Assembly: GCA_030607765.1 (NCBI GenBank)
Contig: JAUWJJ010000025.1
Location: forward strand, 1 to 9,058
Reading direction: 5' to 3'
Length of the DNA: 9,058 nt
Source: Candidatus Aerophobota bacterium
GTDB taxonomy: Bacteria; Aerophobota; Aerophobia; Aerophobales; B3-G15
The notes under the pieces were generated by a model, which searched no databases, was not told where the DNA came from, and saw only the letters and a program-made list of their open reading frames with translations. Made by a program: the position numbers and the translations under genes. Shown one piece after another: positions 1 through 8,987 of this stretch; position 1 is the stretch's first letter; the number at the start of each line of letters is the position of its first letter.

Positions 1-1091
1 TAGGTTCCCAGCATTATTCTTCTTTTTACCTCTTCTCCAAAGCCTTCACTTCGAGTTTTCTTGTACATTCCAATAAGATCAGTTTTTCCTTGGGTGCGAT
101 GTCCATATCTTACCCCATCGTATCTTGCTAAATTAGAACTTGCCTCAGCAGTAGCAATTAAATAATAGGTAGCCACAGCATATTCTGTATGAGGCAGAGA
201 AACCTTTTCTATCTTAGCTCCCAGGTCCTCGAGGACTCTGATTGCCTGCATAATTTTCCCTTTTACCTCTTTTTCCATTCCAGGGATAAAGTACTCCTGA
301 GGAAGACCAATTTTTATTCCTTTGAGTTCGGGAATAAGAAATTCAAGATAATCCGGCACAGGATAGTCTAAGGAAGTAGAGTCCATTTTGTCTTTTCCGC
401 TAATCGCTTTAAGAAGAAGAGCGCAATCAGTAACATCTCGGGCTAAGGGTCCTATTTGATCCAGAGAAGAAGCAAAGGCAACCAGTCCGTAACGGGAAAC
501 TCGTCCATAGGTTGGTTTTATTCCCACAATTCCACACAGAGATGCTGGTTGACGGATAGAGCCTCCTGTGTCTGAACCCAGAGCTAAGGGAACCTCGCCA
601 CCGGCTACTGCTGCAGCAGATCCTCCACTGGACCCTCCGGGAATATAGTTTAAATTCCAGGGATTGCGGGTTATTTGAAAAGCAGAATTTTCTGTAGAGG
701 AACCCATAGCAAATTCATCCAGATTAGTTTTTCCTATTATAATACATCCTGCTTCTTTTAATTTTTCTATTACTGTAGCCGGGTAAGGAGGAATAAAACT
801 ACTAAGGATACGAGAAGCACAGTTGGTTTCTCCATTGGTTGTGCACATATTATTCTTAACAGCGATGGGAATTCCACTTAAAGGACCAATTTTTTCTTTC
901 CTTTGTATTTTTTCATCCCACATCTTAGCTTCCTCAAGAGCTTCTTCCCTGTCCAGATACAAAAAAGCCTTTATCTTATCTTCAACCTCTTCTATTCTCT
1001 GGAAAAAAGAGAGCACAAGTTCCTGCACTGATATTTCTTTACTTACAATTAACTTGTGAAGATTATGTGCTGGATTTTCATAAAGAGCCAA
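1..1091 (-). CDS. gatA: Asp-tRNA(Asn)/Glu-tRNA(Gln) amidotransferase subunit A, 5' part (C-terminus beyond window)
   Basis: GatA is the amidase subunit of the GatCAB complex; it releases ammonia from glutamine to convert Glu-tRNA(Gln) and Asp-tRNA(Asn) to the amidated forms. The reading frame is open from a TTG at 1091 to the window edge, giving 363 codons, about three quarters of the usual ~485 residues. The amidase-signature triad is intact and falls at the family's usual numbering: Lys79 (in AVKNN), Ser154 (in [10 protein letters not shown]) and nucleophile Ser178 (in [13 protein letters not shown]). [21 protein letters not shown] and the ARYDGVRYG segment are also typical. The start was chosen because AAGGAG lies 6 nt upstream of the TTG and [15 protein letters not shown] matches GatA N-termini; an ATG at 1081 is out of frame. 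The gene begins 14 nt inside the upstream isomerase gene, so translation is probably coupled. gatC is not adjacent on this side; gatB could lie beyond the edge. Confidence 0.96.
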
Positions 1092-2121
1092 TTTCAACTC
1101 CTTTATTCCTTAAAGCATTTTCCCAGTAATTTACCGATTCTTTTAAGTGATCCAGGATCATCTCATCAAAAGACCCAAAAGGCGGATACATTATTTCTAT
1201 AAAAAAGTAAACCCCGTTAGAAAATTCGGATGGTGCTTTAAACCCTACTCTCATTTCTTCATAATCTTTCCTATCATTCCCGCCCTTGTGGACGGAGCCT
1301 TTTCTAACAGGATGAATCTCTTTTTCTCCTCTGTTCTGAAAAATTTTTATTATCCTTTCTGCATCAATAATTCCTTTCTGATTGTGTTCTTTAGTAAAAG
1401 GCCAGTGCTTACTGGTTATCTTATCGGTTTGCTGGAGATGAACAACTAAGGTTTCTCGAGAAAATTCCTCCAGCCAGGCATAGGGGTCAGCATCTTTTCT
1501 GTTAGGGGAGTCAACATTTCCATGACCTACATCTATTAAAAGATAAACAGGCAACTCAGAAACTTCATTTAGTTTTTTATACCACCATCTTGTTTCCGAG
1601 ATAGTGGAGGGAATTTCTCTTCTGCAGGACATAGGTTCAAATAGCATAAATTTTAGTCCCTTTTCTTTCCCCACTTTTGAAAGATATCCCCATTTGGAGA
1701 GAAGTTCCTCAATTAAGCTATTTTTTTCTTTATCATCCAAGAGAGCTTTTTGAGGGAGAGCCCCCAAGAAACTTCCGTAACCAAAAGACCCCATCTGCAG
1801 TGTATCTTCTATTCCATTTTCAAACCATTTTACAGCAGCATCTCTCATCTCTTTATCCGGATGAAACAAAAGGTTGAGACAATGGGGAATTGTTCCTGAG
1901 AAATTGCTCTGGATAACTATCCCATACCTCTGGCATAGTTTTTTTATTTTATGGCAAGTTTTTCTCCTTAACTTCAAAGGAGTAAAAATAGGGTCCAGAA
2001 TATCACTGAAAAACTGAACATATTTTACTTTTAAATCCTCAGCCACAATCCTTGTCCACTCCTCCGGTTTTATCCATCTGGTTCCTACAAAGGAAAGATT
2101 TACTCCTAAATTTATTTGCAT
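1078..2121 (-). CDS. xylose-isomerase-like TIM-barrel sugar-phosphate isomerase/epimerase family protein
   Basis: This 347-residue soluble protein looks like a member of the sugar-phosphate isomerase/epimerase TIM-barrel superfamily. Strand-end residues fit a divalent-metal site: Glu162 (LFEPMS), Asp197 ([11 protein letters not shown]), His228 (VVHLQQTD) and Glu309 (FIEIMYPPF). HWPFT at 239-243 follows the His strand, as I recall from tetrulose/tetrose-phosphate isomerase-like members, but the substrate cannot be assigned. Residues 270-306 are encoded by an inserted palindromic repeat that falls just before the last metal-ligand strand, so the normal protein would be about 310 residues. The start ATG at 2121 has only a weak AGGGA-type site 4 nt upstream; a small upstream ORF overlaps it. 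The gene ends inside gatA, which suggests a bicistronic unit. Superfamily assignment is fairly secure, function is not. Confidence 0.8.
1204..1314 (-). repeat. in-frame palindromic repeat inside the isomerase gene (codons 270-306)
   Basis: The coding sequence carries a segment bounded by inverted arms CCCGTTAGAAAA (1213-1224) and its near-complement TTTTCTAACAGG (1300-1311), 11 of 12 positions pairing. The right-hand product ends FSNGVYF and the left-hand product begins HPVRKG. A 14-mer, GTAAACCCCGTTAG (1207-1220), recurs exactly at 2644-2657, where it belongs to an intergenic hairpin. The segment keeps the reading frame, has no stop codon, and encodes 37 polar, charged residues unlike the rest of the TIM barrel. 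I infer insertion of a mobile palindromic element, comparable in kind to the in-protein palindromic elements described in Rickettsia. Confidence 0.75.
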
Positions 2122-2618: not shown

Positions 2619-2647
2619 ATTATACCTTACAAGATTTCTTTTGGTAA
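2619..2647 (-). promoter_or_regulatory. candidate promoter of the tRNA-binding protein gene
   Basis: On the minus strand TTACCA (2642-2647) and a perfect TATAAT (2619-2624) are separated by 17 nt. Transcription would start near 2612, about 20 nt before the ATG, leaving room for the ribosome site. The -35 overlaps the outer edge of the palindromic repeat (it shares the GTAA of the repeated 14-mer), so repeat insertion may have contributed part of the promoter. Confidence 0.55.
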
Positions 2648-2678
2648 ACCCCGTTAGATGTTTACTATCTAACGGGGT
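2648..2678. repeat. palindromic repeat at the 3' end of the malic enzyme gene
   Basis: ACCCCGTTAGAT (2648-2659) and ATCTAACGGGGT (2667-2678) are perfect 12-bp complements around the loop GTTTACT. GTAAACCCCGTTAG at 2644-2657 is identical to 1207-1220 inside the isomerase gene, and in the same orientation. The malic enzyme's terminal Pro-Arg codons and its TAG stop lie in the right-hand arm. No T run follows on the minus strand, so it is not a classical intrinsic terminator, though it might stabilise the 3' end of the mRNA. Confidence 0.75.
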
Positions 2679-4012
2679 AAAGGCTGAATAACCCCTTTTT
2701 CCATATGAAATTTAACAACTTCCTGAGAGGCTTTTATTGTTGAGAAAATGCTCTCTTGCAGCTCATCCTTACTTAGCTTGATTCTTGCTACCCCCTGTTG
2801 TATAGCTTTCATTCCCACAGCTACTGCCTCTTTTATATACATCGGTGTCTCTCCCATATTTGGGATTATGTATTCCTCGCTTAGCCCTTTTTTCTCTGCA
2901 TATTCAGATATGGCATATGCTGCTGTAGTGCACATCTCGTCAGTTATACATCTTGCTCCTACATCTAAAACACCTCTAAATACAGCCGGGAATCCAAGGG
3001 AGTTATTTACCTGGTTGGGAAAATCAGAACGGCCTGTAGCTATAATCTTGGCTCCTGCCTCTTTTGCCTCCCAGGGCCATATCTCAGGAATGGGATTGGC
3101 ACAGGCAAAAACTATCGATTTGTTAGCCATATTGGCAATCCACTCTTTTTTTATCACCCCTGGACCTGATTTAGATAAAGCTATACAGATATCAGCCCCC
3201 TTTAGAGCTTCCCTTATTCCACCAGTTTTTCTTTCTTTGTTTGTTTTTTTACATATCTCCCACTTGACAGTTTCCTTCTCCTTTAAATCAGTTCTATCCT
3301 GATTAAGAATACCTTTACTATCAACCATTACTATATTATCAGGGTTTGCCCCGGCTAAAACTGTATATTTAGCGATATTTATATTTGCAGCTCCGGCTCC
3401 AATAAAAGCAATTACAACATCCTTTAGCTTCTTTTCAACTACTTTTAAAGCACTGATTAGTCCAGCTAAAGTTACCAGAGCTGTTCCCTGCTGATCATCA
3501 TGCCATACAGGTATATTTAGCTCTTTTCTTAGCCTCTCAAGAATATAAAAACACTTTGGTTTGGCAATATCCTCTAAATTTATGCCTCCAAATGTAGGAG
3601 ATAGCCACTTAACTGTATTAATTATCTCATCAGGGTCTTTGGTATTTAAACATATCGGGAAAGCATCCACACCTCCTAAGTATTTGAAAATCATAGCTTT
3701 ACCTTCCATTACAGGAAGAGCTGCCTCAGGGCCAATATCTCCTAAACCAAGCACCCTGCTTCCATCGCTGATGATAGCAATAGAATTGCCTTTATTTGTA
3801 TATTTAAATACTCTGGCTTTATTCTTATAAATAGCCCTGCAGGGGGAGGCTACTCCAGGGGTGTACCATATGGAAAAATCCTCATAGGTTTTAATGGGGG
3901 CCTTAATTGCTGTAGCAATTTTTCCCTTATAAAAGGAGTGATGTTTCATAGCTAATATTTCCGGTTCTTTAGCCTTAGCCAAAAGTTCCTTCTTTGTTAA
4001 CTTCTTAGTCAT
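2669..4012 (-). CDS. malic enzyme (malate dehydrogenase, oxaloacetate-decarboxylating, NAD(P)-dependent)
   Basis: The enzyme converts malate to pyruvate and CO2 with reduction of NAD or NADP, linking the C4-acid pool to pyruvate. At 447 residues it is in the range of the short bacterial malic enzymes. The general acid is Tyr50 (in WYTPGVA) and the general base Lys105 (in EGKA). Metal ligands are Glu147-Asp148 (GGINLEDI) and Asp172 or Asp173 (VWHDDQQGTA). SDGSRVLGLGDIG is at 82-94, and the Rossmann loop GAGAAN is at 205-210. NPIPEIWPWEA and QVNNSLGFPAVFRGVLD complete the C-terminal domain. Cofactor choice cannot be read with confidence. The start ATG lies 4 nt after the polA stop, with GAGG in the last codons of polA, so the gene is translationally coupled to polA. 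The final residues Leu-Pro-Arg and the stop codon come from a palindromic repeat, so the original C-terminus may have differed. Confidence 0.95.
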   Translation of the reverse strand: MTKKLTKKELLAKAKEPEILAMKHHSFYKGKIATAIKAPIKTYEDFSIWYTPGVASPCRAIYKNKARVFKYTNKGNSIAIISDGSRVLGLGDIGPEAALPVMEGKAMIFKYLGGVDAFPICLNTKDPDEIINTVKWLSPTFGGINLEDIAKPKCFYILERLRKELNIPVWHDDQQGTALVTLAGLISALKVVEKKLKDVVIAFIGAGAANINIAKYTVLAGANPDNIVMVDSKGILNQDRTDLKEKETVKWEICKKTNKERKTGGIREALKGADICIALSKSGPGVIKKEWIANMANKSIVFACANPIPEIWPWEAKEAGAKIIATGRSDFPNQVNNSLGFPAVFRGVLDVGARCITDEMCTTAAYAISEYAEKKGLSEEYIIPNMGETPMYIKEAVAVGMKAIQQGVARIKLSKDELQESIFSTIKASQEVVKFHMEKGVIQPLPR

Positions 4013-6620: not shown

Positions 6621-6905
6621 GCGCCTCCAGTTTCCTGAAATTTTAAGGCTGCCCTTTCCTTCGGTGTTTTCCGGGCGCCAGCGGCTAAGTTTCACATTAC
6701 TTCTCGGCAGGTCTAAAGACCTGCTCTACATTTACTGTAGCCGCAACCTTCAGGTTGCGTAAGATTCGCAGGCTCTGAGCCTCGCGACTACCAAAAGAAG
6801 CAGGCTATGAGTCTCGCGATTACCCGCCTTAATCACCGCTTACCTTATGGAAAACATGCTCAGCGGGCAGCAAATTGTAAGGATTTTTCAGGAAACTGGA
6901 GGTGT
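6621..6905. mobile_element. MITE-like element with 17-bp terminal inverted repeats
   Basis: CCTCCAGTTTCCTGAAA at 6624-6640 is repeated as its perfect reverse complement at 6886-6902. Internally, GCTGCCC (6648-6654) and its complement GGGCAGC (6865-6871) extend the symmetry. The roughly 285-bp interior has no convincing ORF but contains an array of small hairpins, and is visibly richer in G+C than the flanks. A clear target-site duplication is not visible; TTAA is found near both sides (6607-6610 and 6907-6910) but not immediately flanking. I infer a non-autonomous mobile element moved by a transposase elsewhere. Confidence 0.6.
6707..6824. repeat. array of short hairpin repeats inside the MITE-like element
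   Basis: Four units can be seen. GCAGGTCTAAAGACCTGC (6707-6724) is a perfect 8-bp hairpin followed by CTAC. CGCAACCT and AGGTTGCG (6742-6759) form a second. AGGCTCTGAGCCT (6770-6782) is the core of a third inside GCA...CGCG. A fourth (6800-6824) is a degenerate direct copy of the third (6768-6792), identical at 22 of 25 positions and 32 bp downstream. The block 6737-6791 has the order GTAG, hairpin, AAGAT, hairpin, CTAC, and matches 8933-8987. Confidence 0.75.
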
Positions 6906-8900: not shown

Positions 8901-8932
8901 AAAGACTATTTCTTGTTAATATTTAAGTTTAT

Positions 8933-8987
8933 GTAGGGCAGGTCTTTTAGACCTGCCAAGATAAGCAGACCTGAAGGTCTGCACTAT
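8933..8987. repeat. paired-hairpin repeat, second copy, downstream of tRNA-Val
   Basis: The unit reads GTAG (8933-8936), a perfect 9-bp hairpin GGCAGGTCT/AGACCTGCC (8937-8957), AAGAT (8958-8962), a perfect 8-bp hairpin GCAGACCTGAAGGTCTGC (8965-8982), and ACTA (8983-8986). The same framework, with different but still complementary stems, occurs at 6737-6791. No T run follows directly, so it is not a standard terminator for the tRNAs, though it may define their 3' end. Confidence 0.8.

Follow-up and report, generated by a model that had tools for sequence, protein, structure and literature searches.

A probable MITE-like palindromic element inserted in frame in an epimerase-like gene of a Candidatus Aerophobota bacterium

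Most descriptions of in-frame coding palindromes concern Rickettsia and Wolbachia; to our knowledge, the way in which such palindromes move is unsettled. According to passages of two papers, Rickettsia palindromic elements (RPEs) are palindromes of 100-150 bp, some of them situated in frame in Rickettsia genes (PMC3767692, PMC10969869). Coding palindromes are also cited, in part of a further source, for Wolbachia and Methanocaldococcus jannaschii (PMC2996958). Searches of the open-licence literature for a palindromic element of Aerophobetes, under that name of the phylum, gave no report among the matches listed; one may exist elsewhere. The arm letters of the element do occur in PMC3969353, where they belong to an oligonucleotide list, and none of the papers containing these letters looked relevant by title.

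Here we describe a palindromic segment in a 9,058-nt stretch of DNA (the window; contig JAUWJJ010000025.1, assembly GCA_030607765.1) from a Candidatus Aerophobota bacterium. With a probability of roughly 0.86, we read the segment as belonging to a dispersed palindromic element of Aerophobetes, non-autonomous and MITE-like, of which one copy has entered an epimerase-like gene in frame. As with RPEs, in the passages that portray them (PMC3767692, PMC10969869), its palindromic repeats lie in frame in unrelated genes, where the extra residues are apparently tolerated. It differs from them in belonging to another phylum, in the dominance of a 33-nt short form and in its TTTAC-like flanks on both sides; furthermore, its copies lie mostly outside genes, in contrast to the RPEs of R. 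conorii, nearly half of which are in ORFs, as stated in a section of PMC10969869. The Aerophobetes element works in the manner of an RPE, a likeness in kind that sets the two side by side by description, and not by sequence. Also by description, it resembles the stand-alone palindromic coding inserts found in assorted genes of Wolbachia and M. jannaschii, which are other lineages (PMC2996958, in part). With GTAG/CGTC REPs, as an extract of PMC3733652 presents them, it shares short palindromic hairpins, of which many are situated downstream of genes and some within them; on the other hand, it has no GTAG/CGTC tag, it carries TTTAC-like flanking repeats, and no linked RAYT was found. With MITEs, following the account in passages of PMC10969869, it has in common the small size, the lack of autonomy, the terminal inverted repeats and a target repeat at both ends, but no parent transposon was found among the Y1 loci examined.

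The host gene is an ORF on the reverse strand (1078..2121) encoding a 347-residue xylose-isomerase-like TIM barrel of the sugar phosphate isomerase/epimerase type (PF01261, E 3.1e-9), whose nearest folds in a fold search are 4k3z and then 3qxb. On the same strand, the long element copy occupies 1207..1316 (110 nt with both target copies), and its net insert of 105 nt equals 35 codons. Along the gene it is composed of a 5' target copy TTCAT (1312..1316), a 5' arm CCTGTTAGAAAA (1300..1311), a 3' arm TTTTCTAACGGGG (1212..1224) and a 3' target copy TTTAC (1207..1211), all on the reverse strand; the 3' arm belongs to a half-site family present in 10 of 17 Aerophobetes genomes, and TTTAC is also the word at the empty site. 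The sequence-only reading of the window had pointed out two inverted arms and a 14-mer shared with a second hairpin, and both are indeed there: the arms CCCGTTAGAAAA (1213-1224) and TTTTCTAACAGG (1300-1311) are complementary at 11/12 positions, and GTAAACCCCGTTAG at 1207-1220 repeats exactly at 2644-2657, the identity running one base further in both. Folding of the 111-nt segment gave z = -2.2, 4/200 shuffles being equally stable.

A protein search with the host enzyme returned 125 relatives, 120 of them listed, and a 70-sequence alignment joined the window protein to 69 of these 120. Its 33 inner insert columns are filled in two sequences, the window protein and P0001 (97% identical), and empty in 68, and the same two carry the insert in an alignment of 27 sequences. 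The clean in-frame gap in homologues that had been anticipated is thereby found, with an extent of residues 270-304 (net 35 residues); P0002, a relative of 306 residues with 78% identity, is without the insert. At the DNA level, relatives were found through the epimerase alignment because the matches of a peptide-alignment pattern (28 in GTDB genome contigs, 34 in IMG/VR) were all unconfirmed, tblastn supporting none. This search yielded 21 loci from named genomes, of which that of Candidatus Aerophobetes isolate AUK284 is closest (79% identity) and the next three belong to other Aerophobetes isolates, so that this phylum is the most likely source of the window. The empty site of the AUK284 epimerase (L001) is GAAATTTACTTTTTTATAG and includes TTTAC, as read by eye, the aligner having placed the gap uncleanly. 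Thus TTTAC is present once in the empty site, versus TTCAT at the start and TTTAC at the end of the filled one. The TTCAT at 1312..1316 has apparently decayed from TTTAC; in P0001, a Tyr is encoded at the first target copy (EIYPVRK).

The insert had been called domesticated and had been placed near the active-site mouth. A functional loop, selected for instance for substrate gating or oligomer contacts, would agree with an insert that is open and in frame in both carriers, and with presumed catalytic-site residues that are intact (E162, D197, H200, H228, Q231 and E309, invariant in 70/70). However, the window protein and P0001 differ at 6/35 insert residues versus 6/312 elsewhere (Fisher p = 4e-4, rate ratio 8.9), and a divergence about nine times that of the rest of the protein suggests relaxed constraint and tolerance rather than domestication. 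In an AlphaFold2 model of the enzyme (mean pLDDT 91.1), residues 271-300 average 51-53, a low confidence that may partly stem from coverage of the insert by 2/70 alignment rows alone; the model also draws a low-confidence helix at 283-289 within the insert, this enzyme being the one modelled among the three in-frame cases. The modelled insert connects helix 254-262 (alpha7) to strand 304-308 (beta8, the eighth strand). As a general rule, TIM barrels have their catalytic site at one face of the strands. Because of this rule and of its position between alpha7 and beta8, the insert is predicted on the non-catalytic face, where it would enter beta8 at its N-terminal end, opposite the catalytic end and not near the active-site mouth; the placement follows strand order, not coordinates. 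The same peptide is also found in an unrelated protein (P0121, described below), which again argues against a loop selected in this enzyme. We regard domestication as very unlikely, and the insert of the host enzyme is most likely a tolerated passenger.

The other copies considered here are a second one in the window and those counted in related genomes. The second copy is a short form of 38 nt (TTTAC...TTTAC, net 33 nt) at 2644..2681 on the reverse strand, recognized by its fold, by the two-arm pattern and in the catalogue. It had been taken for an intergenic hairpin: the repeat at 2644-2657 is as described, but the full extent of the copy, 2644-2681, overlaps the 3' end of a malic-enzyme ORF and provides its last codons and TAG stop. 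Its folding z is -4.3 (0/200 shuffles equally stable), and the two-arm pattern fitting 2646-2677 had 0 matches in 200 shuffles. Matches to TAAACCCCGTTAGA with up to 3 mismatches number four in the window, two of them exact, versus a shuffle mean of 1.0, and four were reached in 2/200 shuffles. At gathering thresholds, Rfam gave no match at the element, the window containing two tRNAs only. Elsewhere in the window, upstream of polA, a perfect 17-bp inverted repeat with a 245 nt spacer (6624-6902) resembles another MITE-type unit, and its inner words reappear inverted at 8926-8978.

Three genes unrelated to one another, those of the epimerase, of the TudS-like protein P0121 and of RdgB, contain palindromic repeats of this kind in frame and have homologues with a clean empty site; the repeats add 11 to 35 residues. 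P0121 (204 residues) came to light when the insert region was searched by itself, an approach limited to proteins some 190 to 607 residues in length, which yielded two; the protein carries the same peptide in frame, with 28/38 residues matching. The family that fits it best is CD3072 TudS-related, below the model cut-off, and a PDB search with it gave no match. Of the matches that a profile of the long peptide had in 17 genomes, the one in G011 (E 1.3e-6) is strong and lies in a long open frame; the others are short or weak (next best E 7.5e-4). A homologue of P0121 is present in 8/17 genomes, and all eight align in two pieces that skip the insert. The homologue in G009 is a near-identical empty allele: it is the same at 113/115 residues before and 53/54 after the insert (166/169 flanking residues), and has exactly 35 residues fewer. 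The DNA of this empty site is GAGGTTCACATAG, with TTCAC and an encoded Val-His; Val-His stands on both sides of the P0121 insert, as a duplicated TTCAC would give, the target repeat of P0121 being read from codons. The third case is an RdgB fused to CoaE in G019, to which the short form adds 11 residues. RdgB is found in 16/17 genomes, and in the 15 others the span matched to the G019 protein is shorter by 11 (11 cases) or 12 residues (4 cases); alignment with the solved structure 3tqu also leaves an 11-residue gap at the insert. The 68/70 gap in the epimerase, the shared peptide in P0121 and the short form in RdgB bear out the earlier proposal of in-frame insertion in the style of RPEs.

Several other in-frame, element-like peptides were noted and are not counted as proven. 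Those in Aerophobetes lie in UxaE (L055), in an MBL-fold fragment (L059) whose upstream frame looks interrupted, in a prepilin (L064) and in a TolB/Omp85-like protein (L189). Others are in G006, in PriA (the alignment to a solved structure shows no clean 11-residue gap), in PurL (the alignment to a solved structure stops before the insert), in a GvpL/GvpF protein and in a sigma-54 regulator.

The element is widely dispersed in the phylum. The general layout in the catalogue is TTTAC and CCCGTTAGA, then a centre that varies in length, and then TCTAACGGGG and TTTAC, and the arms CCCCGTTAGA...TCTAACGGGG are conserved across 54 two-arm entries, a few of which are nested matches; CCCCGTTAGA and TCTAACGGGG form terminal inverted repeats, as MITEs have. 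The half-site TCTAACGGGGTTTAC, with at most one mismatch, has 47 matches in 10/17 phylum genomes versus 3 for the reversed pattern, the full short palindrome occurs at 19 places in 7/17 genomes versus 0 reversed, and the long palindrome at 3 places in 3/17 versus 0 reversed. BLAST with a query of 131 bases from around the insert found matches at E <= 1 in 16/17 genomes, mostly weak and strongest over the right arm. The patterns that proved productive across the phylum were those with CCY/RGG ends or the half-site; an early two-arm pattern gave no match in six genomes, its reversed control matching in three, most in G006 (13 per strand). The family thus comprises a short form (net 33 nt), which is common, and longer ones reaching 105 nt or so net. 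Including both flanks, 38 nt is the commonest catalogue size, the others being 39 to 48, 68 to 70 and 99 to 110 nt. Net lengths are multiples of three in 40 entries and not in 14, an excess that is due to one size class and is not proof. Judged by their flanks, some copies are likely orthologous between genomes (L153/L162, L156/L191), so part of the family is old.

Gene-internal, in-frame copies are a minority in Aerophobetes. Among 35 two-arm copies, 18 neither lie under an ORF of at least 100 codons nor contain the end of one, 14 have an ORF ending inside, and three are spanned by an ORF, RdgB being the only convincing gene (1/35); the long copy of the window is too diverged for the cut-offs of this classing. 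In nine copies (7 sites, with orthologous pairs counted once) the ORF ends at the TAA within the flanking GTAAA, and gene ends are for this reason common landing sites. The same nine copies would also suit a short form that is a transcription terminator or RNA hairpin only, recurring by function and not by mobility. Similar hairpins in several of 20 environmental viral stretches, some with T runs after them and no TTTAC flanks, would fit this reading too. Yet RdgB has a copy within it, two other genes contain long forms, a near-identical empty allele existing for one of them, and the arms are conserved as sequence together with a flanking word. To a terminator or hairpin without mobility we give hardly any credence, and a mobile element is again preferred.

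The flanks themselves bear on how such an element would move. Left and right 4-mers are identical in 34/54 entries from both phylum groups (permuted right flanks, mean 27.1; P = 0.00045); the identical pairs include TTGA/TTGA twice, TTCA/TTCA and TCTA/TCTA, and where the left flank is not TTTA, the right one is identical in 4/18. TTTA is the left flank of 36 and the right flank of 40 of the 54 entries, right-flank counts being biased by the many loci found with that flank in the search pattern; GTAG or CGTC, the tag of the REPs, is in none. At RdgB of G019, the element is in the opposite orientation, between ATAAA and GTAAA, and among 13 empty RdgB sites read, GTAAA is at the aligned codons in two (G002 and G011, whose genomes are not close relatives). 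Target-site duplication, as in MITEs, is therefore seen in the epimerase, the TudS-like protein and the 34 flank pairs, and is weaker at RdgB; its basis is DNA of both states in the epimerase, empty-site DNA and filled-site codons in the TudS-like protein, and the flanks of the filled site in RdgB. These alleles support a TTTAC-like target for insertion and a repeat of 4-5 nt that remains on either side.

A different mover would be implied if the repeat were of REP type, carried as single-stranded DNA by a Y1 (RAYT/IS200-like) transposase, and not a terminal-inverted-repeat derivative. Short hairpins are often at gene 3' ends, as REPs are in an excerpt of PMC3733652, and Y1 transposases are present in 7/17 genomes. 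Nonetheless, among 20 Y1_Tnp loci one had a half-site, at 2 mismatches, and no transposase, of the Y1 class that was examined, was linked to the element; G010 to G015 have the element with no detected Y1 match, although these genomes may be incomplete. A target repeat of 4-5 nt also fits staggered-cut transposition better. Y1 transposase was dropped as the mover for want of linkage, and we consider a REP-type origin unlikely. For the MITE-like element, we propose that a transposase acting in trans would make a staggered cut at a TTTAC-like target and join the element to it. Surviving copies would then be mostly intergenic or at the TAA stop of a gene (GTAAA being the target in reverse), and a gene-internal copy with a net length that is a multiple of three and an open frame could survive as an unstructured surface loop.

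Element copies occur in genomes of a second phylum too, where contamination of metagenome bins is possible. The more distant epimerase loci come from 15 genomes, and the half-site is found in five of these (11 in G006, 2 in G005 and 1 each in three) versus 3 reversed matches overall; G012, one of these 15 and of the Aerophobetes group, has none. In the second phylum group (35 genomes, including G005 and G006), the strict two-arm pattern is present in two. Near-identical short forms of the GTTTAGA type are found in both phylum groups (L166 and L154 of G015, L261 of G006), which suggests transfer or bin contamination. Separately, the coding sequence of a prepilin-like N-terminus (FLTGFTLVELM) at L252 of G006 spans an exact half-site TCTAACGGGGTTTAC, by chance or by reuse of an arm. 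In three of the 20 viral stretches (L207, L208 and L212), the exact short core of the window copy lies between TTCA repeats; their flanks are similar, perhaps from one virus. Viruses could carry the element between hosts. A broader reading, in which frame-neutral sizes (net 33, 36, 42, 57, 63, 99 and 105 nt) are selected because such copies add residues and leave genes intact, and the element is a recurrent, protein-lengthening, target-specific mobile palindrome of at least two phyla, perhaps also of viruses, in hosts that are not Rickettsia-like parasites, seems to us doubtful and is offered as conjecture.

The Aerophobetes lineage is not known to be an obligate intracellular parasite. Because the near-identical empty allele and the recurring target word show the site before and after insertion, both the mechanism and what such inserts cost a protein are directly testable. 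Where proteins of uncultured phyla have odd loops of 11 or 35 residues, the cause may be mobile DNA, and not function.
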